A DNA stretch of 64,000 bases from Arcobacter arenosus (GTDB lineage: Bacteria > Campylobacterota > Campylobacteria > Campylobacterales > Arcobacteraceae), in the NCBI RefSeq assembly GCF_005771535.1, contig NZ_VANU01000002.1, positions 124,001 to 188,000 on the forward strand, in the 5' to 3' direction. A model generated the notes under the pieces. It was given only the letters and a program-made list of their open reading frames with translations, did not search any database and was not told the origin of the DNA. The position numbers and the translations under genes were made by a program. Below, piece by piece: positions 6,512 to 21,788 of the stretch; the stretch's first letter is position 1, and each line of letters starts with the position of its first letter.

Positions 6512-6529
6512 GTGTAGAGTATGTGTGGA
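6512..6529 (-). promoter_or_regulatory. Copper-box A, upstream of yceI-hvfABC
   Basis: Minus-strand TCCACACATACTCTACAC: two heptamers (6529-6523 and 6518-6512) with an 11 bp period. The site lies 57 bases upstream of the yceI start and upstream of the divergent response regulator gene. Unlike the other copies, the best -10 (TATACT, 6490-6485) is 21 bases away, so activation geometry may differ. Regulator binding is an inference from the repeated pattern. Confidence 0.5.
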
Positions 6530-6545
6530 TTAATTTTTTTATTAT

Positions 6546-6555
6546 GTGATATAAT
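6546..6555 (+). promoter_or_regulatory. Extended -10 promoter of a probably leaderless response regulator mRNA
   Basis: TGTGATATAAT-type extended -10, with TATAAT at 6550-6555. A start of transcription about 7 bases downstream would fall on or next to the ATG at 6563. No Shine-Dalgarno sequence is present before that ATG. Confidence 0.55.
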
Positions 6556-6562
6556 ATTTGCC

Positions 6563-7222
6563 ATGAAAATACTACTTTTAGAAGATGATTTAATACTTAA
6601 TGAAATAGTTGAAGAGTTCTTAATAGACCTAGGCTATGATGTAACAGTTGCTTATGATGGAATGCAAGCAAGTGAGATAATTTATGATGAGCAGTTTGAT
6701 TTACTTATACTTGATGTAAATGTTCCAAATATGACAGGTTTTGAGTTTTTAAAATCATTAAGAGAAAATAATATTACAACTCCAGCTATTTTTACAACCT
6801 CTTTAGATTCTGTTGATGATGTGGAAGAGGGCTTTAATTCAGGGGCTGATGATTATTTGAAAAAACCCTTTGAATTAAAAGAGTTAGAGCTTAGAATAAA
6901 CAATATAAAAAGACTTCTTCATATGGAAGATGACGAATTAGTTATAGGTGAAAATCTAAAGTTTAATACAAAACTAAATTTTATTGATAATGATTCAATC
7001 AAAACAAAACTTCCTTTAAAGGAAGCACAAATTTTAAAATATCTTTTAAATAATACAAATAGATGTGTATCACAAGATGAATTAAGTTCAAATATTTGGT
7101 CATATGAAGATTCACCAACTTCTTCTACAATTAGAACATATATAAAAAATATTAGAAAAATTGTGGGTGATGAGTATATAGAAACGATTAAAGGGGTTGG
7201 TTATAGATTTAACAAGAAGTGA
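6563..7222 (+). CDS. OmpR-family response regulator (copper-type TCS 1)
   Basis: A 219-residue response regulator. The receiver domain has the acidic pocket Glu7-Asp8-Asp9, phospho-acceptor Asp51 (LILDVNVP), a Thr/Ser switch near 79-80 and Lys101 (KKPF). A winged-helix DNA-binding domain occupies about 125-219. The start at 6563 is chosen because MKILLLEDD is the family N-terminus; an in-frame ATG at 6521 would add 14 atypical residues. It overlaps the kinase gene downstream by 26 bases. It is a candidate binder of the tandem heptamer boxes, like CusR/CopR, though this is inferred from context. Confidence 0.9.
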   Translation: MKILLLEDDLILNEIVEEFLIDLGYDVTVAYDGMQASEIIYDEQFDLLILDVNVPNMTGFEFLKSLRENNITTPAIFTTSLDSVDDVEEGFNSGADDYLKKPFELKELELRINNIKRLLHMEDDELVIGENLKFNTKLNFIDNDSIKTKLPLKEAQILKYLLNNTNRCVSQDELSSNIWSYEDSPTSSTIRTYIKNIRKIVGDEYIETIKGVGYRFNKK

Positions 7223-8372
7223 AAAAAATACCTTTAGAAGATTTTTAGGACTTTATCTAGGTTCTTCACTTATTTTACTTAGTATAATATTTTATTTATT
7301 TTATAAAATGGAATCAAAACTCCAATATGATTTAATCACTTCAAATATGCAAAATGTGGCAAGTAAAGTATCCTCAAGTATCATCTATGCCCATATGGCA
7401 AACTTAACAATAGATACAACAAAATTAGCAGATTTTATAAAATATGAATATGCTTTGTATGATAAGCAACATGAAAAGTTAATAGGAAATCTTTTAGTTA
7501 GTAAAGGCAAAGAGATTGACTTATCAAAAAAACTTCAAAAAATTGATGATAGTTATGTTCTCGTTGAAAGTTCACCTAAGGGTCATTTAGGGGTTTATCA
7601 TATTGTAATTAAAGAGAATATTTATCATGGGAGAATAGAAGAGTTACTTGAAAAACTCTATTTTTATTTCTTTTTAACTTTTTCAACTATAACTGTTATT
7701 GCTTATTATTTAGCAGGGATGTTTATTGCTCCAATTATTAATGAAAGAAAAAAATTGAACAATTTTATCAAAGATACAACCCATGAGTTAAATACCCCTA
7801 TTACAGCTATTTTAATGAGTACAGGAGCGGGTGCACCAGCAACAGAAAAAAATCTACAAAGGATAAATCTAAGTGCAAAAAGAATCTCTGAAATTTACAA
7901 AGATTTAGTATATCTATTTTTACAAGATAATAAAAAACCTAAGAAATTAACAAATCTAAACCTTGATGAGATAATAGTTGAACAACTTGAATATTTTGAT
8001 TCTTTTGCTTCTAAAAAAAGATTAAAAATCACTTCAAATTTAGAGCCAACAAAATTTATAATTGATAAAGAAAATTTTATAAGATTGTTTAATAATCTAG
8101 TTTCAAATGCTATAAAATATAACATTGTAGGTGGTTCTATTGATATAGAACTAAAAAATAGTGTTTTAAAAGTTAAAGATACAGGTATAGGTATTGCTGA
8201 AGAAAAACTTGAAGATATTTTTAATAGGTATTATAGAGCTACAAAAGAGCAGGGTGGTTTTGGTATTGGATTAAATATCGTTTATCATATTTGTAAATCA
8301 TATAATATAAAAATAGATGTTCAATCAAAAGAGAAAGAGGGAACTACTTTTACTTTAGATTTTAAAGGCTAA
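7197..8372 (+). CDS. Sensor histidine kinase (copper-type TCS 1)
   Basis: A 391-residue membrane kinase starting at a TTG inside the regulator gene. Transmembrane helix 1 is at about 17-38, a roughly 110-residue periplasmic sensor follows, and helix 2 is at about 154-180. The H-box KDTTHELNTP contains the phospho-accepting His196. The ATPase part shows N-box NNLVSNAIKYN, DTGIGI, and GGFGIGLNIV. His66-Met67 and His130 in the sensor are conserved in the paralogue at 14612 and could bind Cu(I), by analogy with CusS. The gene converges on the next regulator gene with an 11-base overlap. Confidence 0.9.
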   Translation: MVIDLTRSEKNTFRRFLGLYLGSSLILLSIIFYLFYKMESKLQYDLITSNMQNVASKVSSSIIYAHMANLTIDTTKLADFIKYEYALYDKQHEKLIGNLLVSKGKEIDLSKKLQKIDDSYVLVESSPKGHLGVYHIVIKENIYHGRIEELLEKLYFYFFLTFSTITVIAYYLAGMFIAPIINERKKLNNFIKDTTHELNTPITAILMSTGAGAPATEKNLQRINLSAKRISEIYKDLVYLFLQDNKKPKKLTNLNLDEIIVEQLEYFDSFASKKRLKITSNLEPTKFIIDKENFIRLFNNLVSNAIKYNIVGGSIDIELKNSVLKVKDTGIGIAEEKLEDIFNRYYRATKEQGGFGIGLNIVYHICKSYNIKIDVQSKEKEGTTFTLDFKG

Positions 8373-9021
8373 GTTTATACCCTATAGCTTTAATATTTAA
8401 AATTCTATCTTTACCCAATATTTTACGAAGATTTTTTATATAAGTTCTAATAGTAGTATCTGTTGGAGCTTCATCATAAACCCAATTATTGTTGGCAATC
8501 TCCTCAATTGATACAGCTTTATTTTTATTTTTTAAAAGGTATTCAAAAACCTTTGCTTCTATTTTTGAAAGTCTTGAACTAATCCCATTATTAAGTAATA
8601 TCTTACTATCAAAATCATATTCAATTGTATCTGATAATTTTGTTTTTCCATTACTCTCTATTTGTCTTAGTCTTTTTATATTGTTTATTCTAAGTTCTAA
8701 TTCACTTAAATGAAAAGGCTTTTTAATATAATCATCAGCTCCTGCTTCAAAACCATTTTTCATATCATTAGAAGTGTGTAAAGATGTGATATAAATTGTA
8801 GGGATATCAATAGAGTTTTCCTTTAAACTTTTTAGTAAGTCTAAGCCATTTATTGAAGGTACATTTACATCTAATAAAAGTAAATCAAATTTATTTTCAT
8901 ATATAGCTTCAAGGGCATCTTGACCATCATAAGTTGTTACAACTTCATAGTTTAAATCAAGTAAAAACTCTTCAATAATCTCATTTAATAAAGTGTCATC
9001 TTCAAGTAATAAAACTTTCAT
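8362..9021 (-). CDS. OmpR-family response regulator, orphan paralogue (TCS 2)
   Basis: A 219-residue regulator, strongly similar along its whole length to the one at 6563: same acidic pocket (Glu7-Asp8-Asp9), Asp51, KKPF and DNA-binding C-terminus. It has no kinase gene beside it in the same orientation. The most plausible partner is the lone kinase at 14612, a paralogue of the kinase at 7197. It is divergent from the cytochrome-copA operon, so the 9022-9143 gap probably serves both directions. It may recognise the same boxes as its paralogue, or a subset. Confidence 0.88.
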   Translation of the reverse strand: MKVLLLEDDTLLNEIIEEFLLDLNYEVVTTYDGQDALEAIYENKFDLLLLDVNVPSINGLDLLKSLKENSIDIPTIYITSLHTSNDMKNGFEAGADDYIKKPFHLSELELRINNIKRLRQIESNGKTKLSDTIEYDFDSKILLNNGISSRLSKIEAKVFEYLLKNKNKAVSIEEIANNNWVYDEAPTDTTIRTYIKNLRKILGKDRILNIKAIGYKLSL

Positions 9022-9086: not shown

Positions 9087-9118
9087 TCCATACTTTCTCC
9101 ACGCTAAAAAGTCATAAT
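9087..9118 (+). promoter_or_regulatory. Copper-box B and -10, upstream of the cytochrome-MCO-copA operon
   Basis: Plus-strand TCCATACTTTCTCCACGC (9087-9104) is two heptamers with an 11 bp period. Exactly 8 bases later comes CATAAT (9113-9118), a fair -10. The box thus sits where a -35 would be, as at activator-dependent OmpR-family promoters. The first gene starts at 9144. Confidence 0.6.
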
Positions 9119-9888: not shown

Positions 9889-11298
9889 ATGAAAAGAAGA
9901 GATTTTGTTAAACTAGGAATATTAGGGTGTTCAACTACATTTTTAAATGCTAATACAACAACAGTTAAAATATCATTATTTCCAGCTTTTTCAAAACCTC
10001 TTCCAATTCCACCAATTTTAGAGCCTAAGATTAGAGATGGTATTAAAGAGTTTAATTTAACCGTTCAAGAGGGAAGTGTTGAGTTTTTAAATGGTGCAAA
10101 AACAAAAACCTTTGGAGTAAATACAGATTTTTTAGGACCAACTATAAAAGTTCAAAGAGATGATACCGTTAAAATAAATGTGAAAAACTCTCTTAAAGAA
10201 AATACAGTTTTGCATTGGCATGGGTTAAAGGTACCTGGAATTAGTGATGGTGGACCAAACCGTTCAATTAAACCAAATAACTCTTGGACTACACAATATA
10301 AAATTGAACAAAGAGCTTCAATGTGTTGGTATCATCCCCATACCCATGAAAAAACTGGATACCAAGTGTTTATGGGAATTGCAGGATTATTTATTATTGA
10401 AGATGAAGATTCTAACTCTTTAAATTTGCCAAAGGAGTATGGAATAGATGATATCCCATTAGTTTTTCAAGATAGACGATTTGATATGAAAGGTCAGTTT
10501 TTATATAAACAATCTATGCATGATACTATGATGGGAGTTACAGGTTCAATCTCTTTAGTAAATGGCGTGATTGACCCTATTCTTGAAGTATCACCTAAAA
10601 CTATTAGATTTAGAATAATGAATGGTTCAAATGCAAGAATAAATAAGTTTATGTTCAATGACTTAAGAGAGTTTACTCAAATAGCTGGAGATTCAAGCTT
10701 CCTTCCTAAACCTGTAAAAATGAAAACCTTACTTTTAGCTTCTGCTGAAAGAGCTGAAATATTAGTAGACTTTTCAGATTTAGCTGGCAAAGAGATATAT
10801 TTTGGAGATGGTTTTAGTAACAAACCCCTTCTTAAAATTTTAGTAAAAAATGAAAAACCTCAAAAATTTTCTATACCAAGTACCCTTATTGAAATTGAAG
10901 AATATAAAAATGTTGCTACAAAAAATATAAGAGAGTTTACTTTAAATATGAGACCAGGATGGTTAGCTATAAATGGTAAACAAATGGATATGAATAGAAT
11001 TGATGAGATTGTACCATTAAATAAAGTAGAGATTTGGAGAATAAAAAATCAACAAAGGATGCCCCATCCTTTCCATATTCATGGTTGTAGTTTTAGGATT
11101 CTTTCTAGGGATGGAAAAGCTACATTTGAAAATGAAACTTGTTTAAAAGACACAGTTTTAGTTTATGGAAATGAAACGGTAGAGATTGCAGTTAAATTTG
11201 AACATGAATCAACAAAAGAGTTTCCATATATGTACCACTGCCATATTTTAGAACATGAAGATGCTGGAATGATGGGACAATTTATAGTAAAAAGATAA
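9889..11298 (+). CDS. Multicopper oxidase, Tat-exported, CueO/CopA type
   Basis: A 469-residue three-cupredoxin oxidase that probably oxidises toxic Cu(I) to Cu(II) in the periplasm. The N-terminus MKRRDFVKLG is a Tat signal. All copper-site motifs are visible: HWHG (His109, His111), WYHPHTH (His149, His151, His153), HPFHIHG (about 398-404), and YHCHILEHEDAGMM with Cys451 for type 1 copper and Met461 as axial ligand. It belongs to the copper operon. I see no long Met-rich insertion like that of CueO. Confidence 0.93.
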   Translation: MKRRDFVKLGILGCSTTFLNANTTTVKISLFPAFSKPLPIPPILEPKIRDGIKEFNLTVQEGSVEFLNGAKTKTFGVNTDFLGPTIKVQRDDTVKINVKNSLKENTVLHWHGLKVPGISDGGPNRSIKPNNSWTTQYKIEQRASMCWYHPHTHEKTGYQVFMGIAGLFIIEDEDSNSLNLPKEYGIDDIPLVFQDRRFDMKGQFLYKQSMHDTMMGVTGSISLVNGVIDPILEVSPKTIRFRIMNGSNARINKFMFNDLREFTQIAGDSSFLPKPVKMKTLLLASAERAEILVDFSDLAGKEIYFGDGFSNKPLLKILVKNEKPQKFSIPSTLIEIEEYKNVATKNIREFTLNMRPGWLAINGKQMDMNRIDEIVPLNKVEIWRIKNQQRMPHPFHIHGCSFRILSRDGKATFENETCLKDTVLVYGNETVEIAVKFEHESTKEFPYMYHCHILEHEDAGMMGQFIVKR

Positions 11299-11308
11299 GG
11301 AGATTAAA

Positions 11309-11519: not shown

Positions 11520-13700
11520 ATGAAAACGGAGAAAATAAACCTAAATATTTCAGGTATGACATGTGTTAATTGCTCCAATGGAATTGAAAAATTTTTAAGT
11601 AAAAAAAAGGGAGTTATTGATACTAAAGTTAGTTTCGCTTCAAGTGAAGGTGAATTTAGTATAGACCCTGAACTTTTCAGTAAAGAGAAACTAATCTCTA
11701 GTATAGAAAAACTAGGATATAAAGTTGAAGAGGATTTTAAACATTTAGAAGAGGAGCAAAAAAGAAGTTTTAATCATCTTAAAAAACTTTTTTTTACATC
11801 TATTTTAATCACTTCTACAATTTTTATTTTTGCTTTTTTCAATATTTTAGATGAGACAATCAAACCTTATGTAATATTTGCTCTTGCTTCAATAGTTCAA
11901 TTTTATAGTGGAGCAAGATTTTATAAACTTGCATACAAAGCTGTGACAAATAAAAACTACGATATGAATGTATTAGTTGCACTTGGAACTAGTGCTGCAT
12001 ATTTTTATTCTACATTTGTTTTATTCTTACCATCTTTATTCCCTGAACATTTACGATTTATGTACTTTGATGGGGCAGCTGTTATTATAACTTTTATGAT
12101 TTTAGGAAGATTTTTAGAGGAAAATTCAAAACAAAAAGCAAGTGATTTTTTGAAAAATCTTATGAATCTGGCCCCTCAAAATGCTAATTTAATCAAAGAT
12201 GATAAAAGTGTTGAGACTGTACTAGCAAACACTCTTAAAATAGATAATATTGTTTTAGTCAAAACAGGAGATAAAATACCAACGGATGGAATTATTGTAG
12301 AAGGGAAAGCTGATATTGATACTTCTATGATAACAGGTGAATCAATGCCCGTATTTAAAAAAGTTGATGATGAAGTTTTAGCAGGTACATTAAACACAAA
12401 TGGAATTATCAAAGTTAAAGTTCAAAAAGAATTACAAGATACTACTTTATCGAAGATTATCTCTCTTTTAAAATCTGCACAAAGTAAACAAATACCTATT
12501 AGTAGGTTTGCAGATAAAATTGCAAATATATTTGTACCATCAGTTATAGCTATTTCTATACTTACCTTTTTTGTTTGGGGTATTTTAATAGGAGATTTCC
12601 AAAATGCGATTATTGCAAGTATTAGTGTTCTTATTATCTCTTGTCCATGTGCTTTAGGATTAGCAACGCCAATTGCGATAGTTAGTTCAGTTAGCAGGGG
12701 AGCAAAAGAGGGGATTTTGATTAAAAATCCAGAGATATTAGAACAAATAAAAGAGATAAAATATGCCATTTTTGATAAAACAGGAACCCTAACAAAAGGA
12801 AACATTAGTGTTTCAAAAACAAATATAGATGAAAAATATTTTCAAATTGTTGGTTCAATTGAAAGATATAGTGAACATCCTATTTCTAAGGCTATTGTAA
12901 ATTTTATAGAAAACAAAGATATAAATTGTTCATTGGAGATTCAAGATGTTCAAGTTATTCCAGGACATGGTATAAAAGCAAAGTTTGATGAAAAGGAGTA
13001 CTTTTTAGGTAATAAAAAACTTCTTGATGATGAAAATGTAATTATTTCAAAAGAGCATAATGAATATTATAATAAAGAGTTAAAAAATACAAATGGAGTA
13101 ATCTTTGTAGCTATAAATAAAGAAACAATAGGATCTATTTGTTTAGAAGACCAACTAAAAGATGAAGCAGTTGATGTAATTAAAGATTTAAAAAATATGA
13201 ATATTACTCCAATTTTATTGACAGGGGACAATGAAATTACGGCTTCAATTATTGCTAAAAGATTGGGTATAGATGAAGTTTATTCTCAAGTAATACCAAC
13301 ACAAAAATATGAAGTTATTAAAAAATTCCAAAAAGATGCAAAAGTTATGTTTATCGGTGATGGGATAAATGATGCACCATCAATCAAACAAGCAAATATT
13401 GGTATTACCCTTAATTCTGGAGCTGATATTACAAAAGATGCTGGGGATATAATTTTGATTAACAATGAGTTAAACTCTGTTGTAAAAAGTATAAAACTTT
13501 CACATCAAAGTATGAATATTGTAAAACAAAATCTATTTTGGGCCTTTGCTTATAATATTTTAGGAATCCCTTTAGCAGCAGGAATTTTATATCCATTCTT
13601 TGGAATAATGTTAAGTCCAATGTATGCAGGAATAGCTATGAGTTTTAGTTCTGTTACTGTTGTATTAAATTCTCTAAGATTAAAGGTTAAAAAGTTATAA
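11520..13700 (+). CDS. copA: Cu(I)-exporting P1B-1 ATPase CopA
   Basis: A 726-residue P-type ATPase with one N-terminal HMA domain (SGMTCVNC, Cys15 and Cys18). Eight transmembrane segments are expected. The transport site CPC (Cys375-Pro-Cys377), phosphorylated Asp419 (DKTGTLTKG), the HP motif (SEHPISK) and hinge GDGINDAP are all visible. YN in helix 7 (FAYNILGIP) and the M..SS pattern in helix 8 (MSFSSVTVVLN) define Cu(I) specificity. It pumps cytosolic Cu(I) to the periplasm and is last in its operon. Confidence 0.96.
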   Translation: MKTEKINLNISGMTCVNCSNGIEKFLSKKKGVIDTKVSFASSEGEFSIDPELFSKEKLISSIEKLGYKVEEDFKHLEEEQKRSFNHLKKLFFTSILITSTIFIFAFFNILDETIKPYVIFALASIVQFYSGARFYKLAYKAVTNKNYDMNVLVALGTSAAYFYSTFVLFLPSLFPEHLRFMYFDGAAVIITFMILGRFLEENSKQKASDFLKNLMNLAPQNANLIKDDKSVETVLANTLKIDNIVLVKTGDKIPTDGIIVEGKADIDTSMITGESMPVFKKVDDEVLAGTLNTNGIIKVKVQKELQDTTLSKIISLLKSAQSKQIPISRFADKIANIFVPSVIAISILTFFVWGILIGDFQNAIIASISVLIISCPCALGLATPIAIVSSVSRGAKEGILIKNPEILEQIKEIKYAIFDKTGTLTKGNISVSKTNIDEKYFQIVGSIERYSEHPISKAIVNFIENKDINCSLEIQDVQVIPGHGIKAKFDEKEYFLGNKKLLDDENVIISKEHNEYYNKELKNTNGVIFVAINKETIGSICLEDQLKDEAVDVIKDLKNMNITPILLTGDNEITASIIAKRLGIDEVYSQVIPTQKYEVIKKFQKDAKVMFIGDGINDAPSIKQANIGITLNSGADITKDAGDIILINNELNSVVKSIKLSHQSMNIVKQNLFWAFAYNILGIPLAAGILYPFFGIMLSPMYAGIAMSFSSVTVVLNSLRLKVKKL

Positions 13701-13703
13701 AAC

Positions 13704-13735
13704 TCCACACATAGTACACTTTATATTAATATAAT
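13704..13735 (+). promoter_or_regulatory. Copper-box E with consensus -10, no downstream protein gene
   Basis: TCCACACATAGTACACTT (13704-13721) carries the first heptamer perfectly and a degenerate second one at the 11 bp period. After 8 bases comes a perfect TATAAT (13730-13735). This is the same layout as boxes B and D, but on the plus strand here no coding frame follows. Transcription would start near 13742 and run into the hairpin at 13785-13815. Confidence 0.6.
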
Positions 13736-13741
13736 AAATTC

Positions 13742-13819
13742 AAGTTTTAGTAATATAAAACTTTTTCATTATCTCCTCCTAAAGAAACCTTAAAGAGTTA
13801 CTATCTTTGGGGTTTTTCA
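13742..13819 (+). ncRNA. Candidate copper-responsive small RNA
   Basis: About 75 bases lie between a box-plus-TATAAT promoter and a terminator. The predicted fold has three parts: a 5' hairpin (AAGTTTTA 13742-13749 with TAAAACTT 13756-13763, 6-base loop); an unpaired pyrimidine-rich linker 13764-13784 containing CTCCTCCT, complementary to Shine-Dalgarno sequences; and a 3' hairpin followed by a short U run. This modular form is typical of trans-acting bacterial sRNAs. It sits between convergent copA and a cytochrome c gene and overlaps neither. Expression and targets are untested; a mere 3' untranslated region of copA is the main alternative. Confidence 0.5.
13785..13818 (+). terminator. Intrinsic terminator after copA / candidate sRNA
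   Basis: AAACCTTAAAG (13785-13795) pairs with CTTTGGGGTTT (13805-13815), an 11-base stem with two G-U pairs and a 9-base loop, followed by T residues. Confidence 0.65.
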
Positions 13820-13834
13820 GTAGATGATAAAATT

Positions 13835-14278
13835 TTATTTCTTTTCTTTTAAACCTTTTAATTTAACATTCCAAAGTTCATAAATCTCATCTGACCAAAA
13901 GCTTTGAAAATATGCAATTGCTGCTTCTTTTTCTTCTTGGGTTAAAACTTTTTTAAATGATGGCATTTTGCCTCCATAAGCTGCACCTCCCTCATTTATT
14001 ATCTTCATAAGTTGCCATTTTGGATGGTGCCAAGCATGGGCTTTATCGTTTAGTGGAGGGGGAGGGTAAGAACCATCTGATAGTTTTGTTTTCCAATTAA
14101 CTGTTTTTTCTGCATTTTTTCCATGGCATGAAGCACAATTGTTTATAAAGACCTCTTTACCAAAGTTTACTTGTTCTTTTGTATACCATCTTCCTTCAAC
14201 TTTGTTATTTTCAACGCTTATACCATAGGTAAAAAGTCCAATGATTATAGTAGTAATTATTAAAAAAGGTTTATTCAT
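13835..14278 (-). CDS. Periplasmic monohaem cytochrome c
   Basis: A 147-residue cytochrome c with an uncleaved or cleaved N-terminal hydrophobic segment (about 3-20), one haem motif CASCH (about 48-52) and a probable axial Met in GGKMPSFKKVLT (about 104). It is longer than the cytochrome at 9144. It is the second gene of a two-gene operon with the SHOCT protein (16-base gap), apparently under a copper-box-like promoter at 14559. Its electron partner is unknown; context suggests envelope copper stress. Confidence 0.85.
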   Translation of the reverse strand: MNKPFLIITTIIIGLFTYGISVENNKVEGRWYTKEQVNFGKEVFINNCASCHGKNAEKTVNWKTKLSDGSYPPPPLNDKAHAWHHPKWQLMKIINEGGAAYGGKMPSFKKVLTQEEKEAAIAYFQSFWSDEIYELWNVKLKGLKEKK

Positions 14279-14527: not shown

Positions 14528-14559
14528 ACTTTATTTAAATTATGAGGAAAGTGTGTGGA
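14528..14559 (-). promoter_or_regulatory. Copper-box C, upstream of SHOCT-cytochrome c
   Basis: Minus-strand TCCACACACTTTCCTCAT (14559-14542): perfect first heptamer, weaker second one at the 11 bp period. Eight bases downstream lies TAAAGT (14533-14528), a weak -10 in the same position as in boxes B, D and E. The divergent kinase gene promoter is 30 bases away. Confidence 0.45.
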
Positions 14560-14611: not shown

Positions 14612-15772
14612 TTGGAGTTTAATATCGATTTAACTAGAAATGAAAAGAGAACATTTTATAGGTTTTTTGCACTATATTTAGGTGGTTCGTTATTTTTGAT
14701 GATGTTAATTGCAATACTTTATTATCAAAATGAAAAAAAGTTATATTTTGATTTGACAAAAACAAGAATGCAAAATGTTGTTTCAAATATCTCTTCAAGG
14801 ATTATTTTTACTCATATGAGTGATAGCTCTTTAGACTTAAAACAGTTTTTAAAAAATGATATTTACAAAATCTCTTTTTATGATAAAGATAAAAATTTGA
14901 TTATTGGTAATTTAAATGAAAAAATTGATTTTACAAAACAATTTATTCAAAATGAACAAAACTTTACACTAGTTAATGACTCTACTTATGGGCATTTGGG
15001 TGTTGCTTATATTGTAATCCAAGAAAACCTTTTATTTAAAAGTTTAAAAAAAATGCAAGTAGATATTATCACTTTATTTTTAATTGTATATTCTATTTTA
15101 GCTTTAATTGGTTTTTACCTTGCGAAACTTCTTCTTAAACCAATAAAAGATGAAAGGGAAAAACTCAACAATTTTATAAAAGATACAACCCATGAGTTAA
15201 ATACTCCAATTAGTGCAATTTTGATGTCAAGTGAGAGTGAAGAATTGACTAAAAAACAGATAAAAAGAATTCAATTAGCAGCTAATAAAATTTCTGAAAT
15301 ATATAAAGATTTAACGTATATTTTTTTAGAAGATAACTCAGAAAAGGAAGATTTTAAAAATATAAATCTTAAAGAGGTAATAATTTTACAGTTAAAATAT
15401 TTTGAAGCTTTAGCAGAAAGAAAAAAGATATCTATTTCTACCTCTTTAGAGGATACAAACTATTTTATTGATGAAAATGATTTTATTAGATTATTTAATA
15501 ACTTGCTTTCAAATGCTGTAAAATATAATAAAATGAAAGGTTCAATTTTTATAGAACTAAAAAACAATACTCTTACAATAAAAGATACTGGAATAGGTAT
15601 AGAAGAAAAAAAAATAAATGATATTTTTAATAGATACTTTAGAGCCACAACTCAAAGTGGAGGCTTTGGAATAGGGCTTAATATTGTAAAAAATATTACT
15701 ACTCAATACAACATTGATATTCAAGTTGATTCTAAAGTTAACGAGGGTACAACTTTTATTTTAAAGTTTTAA
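14612..15772 (+). CDS. Sensor histidine kinase without adjacent regulator (TCS 2)
   Basis: A 386-residue paralogue of the kinase at 7197, with the same layout: transmembrane helix at about 17-38, periplasmic sensor, second helix at about 153-175, H-box with His194 (DTTHELNTP), N-box NNLLSNAVKYN, DTGIGI and GGFGIGLNIV. His68-Met69 and His128 match the possible metal ligands in the paralogue. The start is TTG. The opening residues IDLTRNE mirror the paralogue, where the same DNA also encodes the end of a regulator. The probable partner is the regulator at 8362-9021. Confidence 0.88.
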   Translation: MEFNIDLTRNEKRTFYRFFALYLGGSLFLMMLIAILYYQNEKKLYFDLTKTRMQNVVSNISSRIIFTHMSDSSLDLKQFLKNDIYKISFYDKDKNLIIGNLNEKIDFTKQFIQNEQNFTLVNDSTYGHLGVAYIVIQENLLFKSLKKMQVDIITLFLIVYSILALIGFYLAKLLLKPIKDEREKLNNFIKDTTHELNTPISAILMSSESEELTKKQIKRIQLAANKISEIYKDLTYIFLEDNSEKEDFKNINLKEVIILQLKYFEALAERKKISISTSLEDTNYFIDENDFIRLFNNLLSNAVKYNKMKGSIFIELKNNTLTIKDTGIGIEEKKINDIFNRYFRATTQSGGFGIGLNIVKNITTQYNIDIQVDSKVNEGTTFILKF

Positions 15773-15783
15773 TCTCATTTCCT

Positions 15784-15815
15784 TCCACACTTTTTCCCCA
15801 TTAGATTTTTATACT
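15784..15815 (+). promoter_or_regulatory. Copper-box D and -10, upstream of the cus operon
   Basis: TCCACACTTTTTCCCCAT (15784-15801) has two heptamers at the 11 bp period. Eight bases later comes TATACT (15810-15815), a good -10. The operon's first ATG is at 15842, preceded by AAAGGAG. This is the clearest protein-gene example of the box. Confidence 0.65.
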
Positions 15816-21560: not shown

Positions 21561-21646
21561 TTTGTGGATAAATCCCACGTTTACTACACAAAAAAAGTTT
21601 ATAATACTCTTACAGTTTTAGAAAAACGATGACAACAACCAACACA

Positions 21647-21728
21647 AATATAATGAAACTTGAAAATTTATTTTGACAGTGTGACAACCAACATAAAATT
21701 CTTCTCCTTAATCAAGTTTCATTATATT
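21647..21728. repeat. Perfect 17-bp inverted repeat with 48-base spacer
   Basis: AATATAATGAAACTTGA (21647-21663) is exactly complementary to TCAAGTTTCATTATATT (21712-21728). Beside each arm lies a related direct motif, GACAACAACCAACACA (21631-21646) and GACAACCAACATA (about 21682-21694). It sits between the convergent cusA and RRM genes. The spacer on the minus strand holds an 8-codon frame (ATG at 21693) behind AAGGAG. No U run follows either arm, so it is not a standard terminator. Function unknown. Confidence 0.6.
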
Positions 21729-21788
21729 AAACTTATTAAAAATCAAAATTTTACGTACAGTTGCTAGAAAATTAAAAAAAGAAAAAGA

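Follow-up and report, generated by a model that had tools for sequence, protein, structure and literature searches.

A candidate small RNA gene with a copper-operon-type promoter downstream of copA in Arcobacter arenosus and related species

Small RNA (sRNA) arms are well known in iron regulons, and pairing of an exposed C-rich segment with Shine-Dalgarno (SD) sequences is known from the Firmicutes sRNAs RsaE and FsrA, which respond to other signals. sRNAs of the MicL kind form the type I category of 3′UTR sRNAs, and the gene cutC was named for copper tolerance. MicL of Escherichia coli is a stress-induced sRNA that lies inside cutC and blocks translation of the envelope protein Lpp; it depends on sigma-E, is processed to 80 nt from 308 nt and is associated with Hfq (PMC6737893). 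In the Campylobacterota, RepG of Helicobacter pylori is described as an sRNA that has two or more stem-loops and whose C/U-rich pairing site, in the terminator loop, binds a G-repeat of tlpB (PMC8295292). The role of sRNAs in the copper response has been called insufficiently studied (PMC7563307), and orphan transcripts or sRNAs that change with copper, some of them near metal-resistance genes, are described in Cupriavidus metallidurans (PMC7563307) and in Caulobacter, where the sRNA ChvR answers ChvGI, a sensor of several stresses (PMC8224329).

The element described here occupies positions 13704–13819 of a 64,000-nt stretch of the Arcobacter arenosus genome (referred to as the window; the genome is G000). 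As in the case of MicL, a putative stress sRNA is tied to a copper-named gene; unlike MicL, the element is preceded by a promoter of the copper-regulon type. It resembles RepG in phylum, in its stem-loops and in its C/U-rich segment, but the CU stretch here is a linker and is anti-SD-like, and no copper link of RepG appears in the account consulted (PMC8295292). The Cupriavidus and Caulobacter candidates belong to other phyla, and no structure, operator or anti-SD segment in common with the element was found in the consulted parts of these accounts (PMC7563307, PMC8224329). A search of the published literature on Arcobacter, Aliarcobacter and Campylobacterota sRNAs in connection with copper or start sites found nothing on this element or on any other copper sRNA of Arcobacteraceae; Arcobacter-only intergenic motifs are mentioned, without names, in the consulted part of one account (PMC6429828). 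We consider that 13704–13819 is probably an autonomous, regulator-activated sRNA gene, whose product would act without Hfq and, through pairing of its linker with SD sequences, lower the translation of its targets at high copper.

The copper locus and its promoters

Copper is taken as the signal because the surrounding genes encode a multicopper oxidase, an HMA chaperone, CopA, RND efflux, a response regulator and histidine kinases. The features of the locus are as follows.

8362–9021, minus strand: response regulator of the OmpR family and putative activator acting at the operator
9087–9118, plus strand: promoter of the cytochrome c-DUF411-multicopper oxidase-copZ-copA operon (matrix rank 3)
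11520–13700, plus strand: copA, Cu-exporting P-type ATPase, named from homology and context, directly upstream of the sRNA
13704–13721, plus strand: operator with half-sites TCCACAC (13704) and TACACTT (13715), 11 bp apart; its geometry is that of the copper-operon promoters, and the same matrix fits both
13730–13735, plus strand: −10 box TATAAT; the second half-site starts 15 nt ahead of it
13742–13819, plus strand: putative sRNA of about 76–78 nt, its start placed from the −10 box and its end from the terminator
13742–13763, plus strand: 5′ hairpin of 8 pairs (predicted fold)
13764–13782, plus strand: single-stranded linker UUUCAUUAUCUCCUCCUAA with the anti-SD CUCCUCCU at 13773–13780 (predicted fold)
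13783–13817, plus strand: intrinsic terminator with a 14-pair stem and a 7-nt loop, which may also end the copA mRNA
14528–14559, minus strand: promoter of the SHOCT-cytochrome c genes (matrix rank 2)
14612–15772, plus strand: histidine kinase, candidate copper sensor
15784–15815, plus strand: promoter of the YtkA-RND efflux (Cus-like) operon (matrix rank 1)

The next gene downstream, encoding a cytochrome c (13835–14278, minus strand), converges on the sRNA unit. A further histidine kinase gene (7197–8372, plus strand) overlaps the response regulator gene tail to tail by 11 bp, and besides the kinase gene at 14612–15772 the window holds another response-regulator-like ORF at 6521–7222.

The TCCACAC box (13704–13710) and the TATAAT sequence (13730–13735) reported in a first-pass annotation of this DNA are both present, and the 26-nt distance between them, which it had compared with that at neighboring promoters, recurs at the promoters at 9087 and 15784. 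It had overlooked the second half-site, TACACTT at 13715; TCCACAC is one half of an 11-bp direct repeat. TCCACAC occurs eight times in the window against 2.9 expected (none of 100 shuffles held as many), and TTCCACACA with one mismatch showed no enrichment (10 against 12.8). A generic promoter scan misses the promoter at 13704, which has no TTGACA-like −35 sequence. A hand-made operator score, which is circular in that it was drawn up after the sites had been seen, gave seven sites at a score of ≥17 in the window against 0.63 per shuffle, and at a low threshold gave no enrichment in the first 30 kb (37 against 41 expected). A cleaner test, although its sites too were picked by hand, is provided by a matrix trained on 18 protein-gene sites from six related species (five from G011, four each from G020 and G024, three from G001 and one each from G003 and G008), with no G000 site and no sRNA site among them. 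By this matrix the site at 13704 scores 20.7 and ranks fourth of 127,936 window positions, behind the promoters of the YtkA-efflux operon (30.4), the SHOCT-cytochrome genes (28.6) and the oxidase-copZ-copA operon (24.3), and the best score in 40 shuffled windows was 16.5; because of these ranks and the shuffled windows, 13704 is placed with the copper-operon promoters. With a 21-site matrix, whose sites were hand-picked from the operator survey and include one that fits poorly (leave-one-out score 8.0), the promoter sites of six sRNA homologs score 17.7–28.2. The same layout, with an 11-bp repeat and 15 nt from the second half-site to the −10 box (11/15), precedes the start codons of copper-cluster protein genes by 51–62 nt here and in relatives. 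In a wider pattern search, a strict form of the operator gave 28 matches against eight in a backward control, ten places being read, and a relaxed form (about 142 against about 114) was of no use on its own. By sequence comparison, the sRNA unit has a predicted promoter of its own, with an operator common to the copper operons.

An 11-bp repeat period is known for binding by OmpR/PhoB-family regulators, and the layout of two half-sites and a −10 box fits a regulator of this family. Such regulators bind direct repeats head to tail (PMC8345958). The gene content points to copper as the signal and, as the protein that would bind the direct repeat, to the OmpR-family response regulator encoded here as part of a copper two-component system; the TATAAT promoter, which comparison assigns to the set, would be switched on together with the copper operons. 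The segment could instead be no more than the tail of the copA operon, a 3′UTR plus terminator, with a promoter-like site that is fortuitous or silent, and this would suit an operator that starts 4 nt downstream of the copA stop codon at 13700, a terminator that copA can use and the related endings found behind other genes of the cluster. We regard this as unlikely, since a matrix from other species places 13704 among the top promoters of the regulon and the geometry is identical in six species.

In G005 and G008, this operator layout is also found ahead of a DsbB-like gene (assigned by reading; L042 829 and L043 1114, minus strand). Upstream of a SHOCT-like gene in G120 (L048 647–800), two operator-like sites flank a 12-bp inverted repeat, TGTCGAAGTAAT.

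Structure and distribution of the putative RNA

An autonomous sRNA gene would here yield a non-coding RNA of about 77 nt, composed of a 5′ hairpin, an exposed CU-rich linker and a terminator in common with copA. The hairpin at 13742–13763 and the unpaired CTCCTCCT linker at 13773–13780 were recovered as the first-pass annotation had described them; the terminator arms that it had placed at 13785–13815 are also present, but the stem has 14 pairs and spans 13783–13817, in place of the 11 bases given there. The segment 13742–13822 folds at −19.1 kcal/mol, compared with −10.8 kcal/mol (sd 2.6) for shuffled sequences (z = −3.26; none of 200 as good), and a slightly longer piece gave z = −3.18, with three of 500 shuffles as good. 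A generic terminator scan misses this terminator, the stem of which is A+U-rich and contains G-U pairs. Two of the stem pairs are of the G-U type in a plus-strand RNA, whereas a minus-strand transcript would oppose A to C at these positions, which argues that the structure is built for a plus-strand RNA. In Rfam 15, no family scored above its gathering score for the element, the only such match in the window being a tRNA elsewhere, and one match lay below threshold (E = 0.18).

The segment 13761–13780, the first three bases of which lie inside the 5′ hairpin, is complementary, base for base, to an ideal start region, AGGAGGAGAUAAUGAAAAAG. This raises the question of whether the product is a micro-ORF, on the plus strand or on the minus strand, where in G000 the SD-like AGGAGGAG is followed by MKKFYITKT and the linker reads as an ideal start region. 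No plus-strand frame is common to the six homologs, however, and the RNAs of G000, G011 and G024 contain no ATG; the minus-strand peptides differ between species (by reading), and promoter, terminator and stems all lie on the plus strand, so that a micro-ORF is very improbable.

Among 20 copA orthologs compared (56–100% identity), a unit consisting of the operator, CUCCU and a terminator, with no common ORF, lies directly behind copA at five loci, those of G000, G003, G008, G011 and G020, of which G020 belongs to another genus. A sixth carrier, G024 from a third genus, was found by an RNA model; its unit is located between a cytochrome-type gene (by reading) and a multicopper oxidase gene, the 3′ end of which it overlaps. 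Because the G024 unit sits away from copA, the sRNA is not merely a copA 3′ end, which also bears on the 3′UTR explanation given above. The arrangement typical of type I 3′UTR sRNAs, a promoter of its own within the 3′ region and a common terminator, is found at five of the 20 copA loci and not in G024. All six homologs, which were recognized partly by eye, keep the 11/15 operator, TATAAT, CUCCU and terminator, and their lengths from the −10 box to the end are about 77–89 nt. Their folds have z values of −3.6 to −5.8, and 8 of 17 pairs changed on both sides, against a shuffle mean of 2.9 (none of 500 had as many), in a structure drawn from the same six sequences, which favors it; slid structures gave 0–3 double-change pairs. 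For the other species, a 5′ hairpin is likewise predicted, weakly in G011, and it cannot be aligned with the hairpin of G000. CUCCU is present in all six with an unpaired probability of 0.63–1.0, and is found in 5–23% of shuffles per RNA. The RNAs of G003, G008 and G020 have, in this order, a 5′ tail that is the complement of AUGAAA, the hairpin and CUCCUUU; by their sequences, tail and CUCCUUU might together hold a start region while the hairpin bulges out. The first-pass proposal of an independent sRNA unit is thus well supported at the level of prediction, by a copper-regulon promoter, retention in six species, covarying stems and an unpaired CUCCU.

The distribution is patchy. A comparison of copA 3′ regions, as proposed in that annotation, gave a mixed picture, since 15 of the 20 loci have no element behind copA and one of these 15 has it elsewhere in the cluster; in G001, copA and operators are present and the sRNA is absent. 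A second RNA model, which includes the operator and was built from the six matching genomes themselves, matched those 6 of 40 chosen genomes (E = 2e-12 to 4.1e-9; next best 0.0072), leaving 34 with no strong match. Within the family, an RNA model gave matches in 51 of 104 genomes at E ≤ 0.5, mostly resembling plain terminators; 23 matches were seen with their flanks, of which five are the training set, and by eye only G024 of the other 18 has the operator. A pattern of half-site, −10 box and CU-linker was found in 7 of the 104 genomes, including G000 and G008. A search of 298 genomes drawn from the taxonomic order, under strict filters, returned only G000 and G024, from a draw that may lack the other four carriers, and the element was seen in none of 5 loci inspected by eye at the copA 3′ end, out of 80 further loci.

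Several side observations were made in these clusters. In Poseidonibacter lekithochrous, the copA 3′ end has a terminator together with an operator-like site and the gene of a small protein. sRNA-like 3′ halves, CU-rich with a similar terminator and some with a hairpin, were seen at L041 447–555 and 969–1088, L049 570–634 and L014 2410–2474, where they follow a porin-like gene and small-protein genes (by reading); these are possibly further 3′UTR RNAs, and a general tendency of these genomes may account in part for CU-rich DNA ahead of terminators. Small exported-looking proteins with YPxENxDTPDYL-like repeats are encoded behind operator-like promoters at L041 665–1024 (the G024 cluster) and L093 8325–8759 (behind copA).

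Hfq, pairing potential and candidate targets

Hfq was found in none of the six carrier genomes, and the same search was positive in 5 of 14 control genomes. Most likely, the element encodes an Hfq-independent sRNA that belongs to a copper two-component regulon and pairs with the ribosome-binding sites of mRNAs. Its linker would pair with SD sequences without Hfq; in G000 and a number of relatives, the pairing may extend into a following AUG-AAA-AA. Ribosome binding would thereby be blocked, and less of the target mRNAs would be translated under high copper. A copper-regulon sRNA with an anti-SD and a conserved promoter, where Hfq was not found, would offer a compact test system for chaperone-free target choice by SD-directed sRNAs.

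Instead of acting on chosen mRNAs, the RNA might serve as a decoy or sponge that binds another sRNA, a protein or bulk SD sequences, in the manner of the 16S tail. The presence of CUCCU in all six homologs would agree with this, as would the G008 linker, AUCACCUCCUUU, which we take to resemble the 16S rRNA 3′ tail; outside CUCCU, however, the linkers diverge between species, and we hold a decoy to be improbable.

The first-pass annotation had named the copZ ribosome-binding site as a pairing partner, and AGGAGAT is indeed present at 11298–11304. Were copZ the main target, the RNA would exert feedback on its own operon by blocking this site, and in G000 the linker alone reaches −13.8 kcal/mol with copZ, through 14 pairs with a 3-nt bulge covering the SD and AUG, which beats the other cluster genes so scored. 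With a longer RNA segment, however, the response-regulator gene outranks copZ in G000, and the SD of copZ is weaker in the relatives. Among nearby start regions in five species, copZ ranks 7 of 32, 5 of 17, 15 of 25, 13 of 23 and 15 of 22, these ranks being rough in that the gene caller mis-starts several genes, misses copZ once and cuts the window copA. Given this inconsistency, copZ was set aside as the target despite its strong pairing in G000, and feedback on copZ as the main role has a low probability, similar to that of a decoy. No gene of the cluster was consistently the best by pairing, and no target group stood out.

The mRNAs of exported proteins that begin Met-Lys-Lys, that of a small cytochrome c among them, are no more than candidate targets. 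In G000, 18 start regions have the form AAGGAG-N2-9-ATGAAAAA, one of which opens a frame of three residues. CxxCH cytochromes account for two of the 18, with pairing ranks of 3 and 7, and exported c-type cytochromes were rejected as a target class on this count; L236, considered as a third cytochrome, has no Pfam match. One small cytochrome c, at G000:C1:509001, has a similar start region in G003, G008 and G011; it is a lead only, given that the search pattern itself selects signal peptides. Of the start regions scored (7 of 22 matches in G003 and 3 of 15 in G008), one that is common to both genomes, AAGGAGAGATGAAATGAAAAA, belonging to a small exported-looking protein, was the best for their own sRNAs.

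A second element behind a cusA-like gene

Another orphan promoter is followed by a structured RNA in the same window:

21574–21734, plus strand: a further orphan promoter, leading to a structured RNA with an anti-SD in its loop, after a cusA-like gene

The cusA-like gene upstream belongs to the AcrB family by Pfam. The matrix score at 21574 is 15.4, which is rank 5 and within the shuffle range, and five operators of this element score 5.3–14.9 with the full matrix, below the copper set. The RNA has a 15-pair stem, AAUAUAAUGAAACUU/AAGUUUCAUUAUAUU, around a loop with CUUCUCC. By model it is present in 14 of 16 genomes of the genus, eight of which built the model, with a weak match in G124 from one other genus (E = 9e-4); it follows the cusA-like gene in the window and at seven other loci (six of the genus, and G124). 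In the stem, double-change cells number 12, compared with 4.0 for shuffled sequences (none of 500), and a count of double-change pairs is less decisive (5 against 3.1; 24 of 500). We consider it possible, with considerable doubt, that the copper clusters of Arcobacteraceae carry two unrelated anti-SD sRNAs, one mostly behind copA and one behind a cusA-like gene, with OmpR-type promoters of the same geometry, which would form an Hfq-free, copper-triggered brake by which exported proteins, c-type cytochromes among them, would be translated less during production of the export machinery. In the window, the second element is convergent to a gene for an RRM RNA-binding protein.
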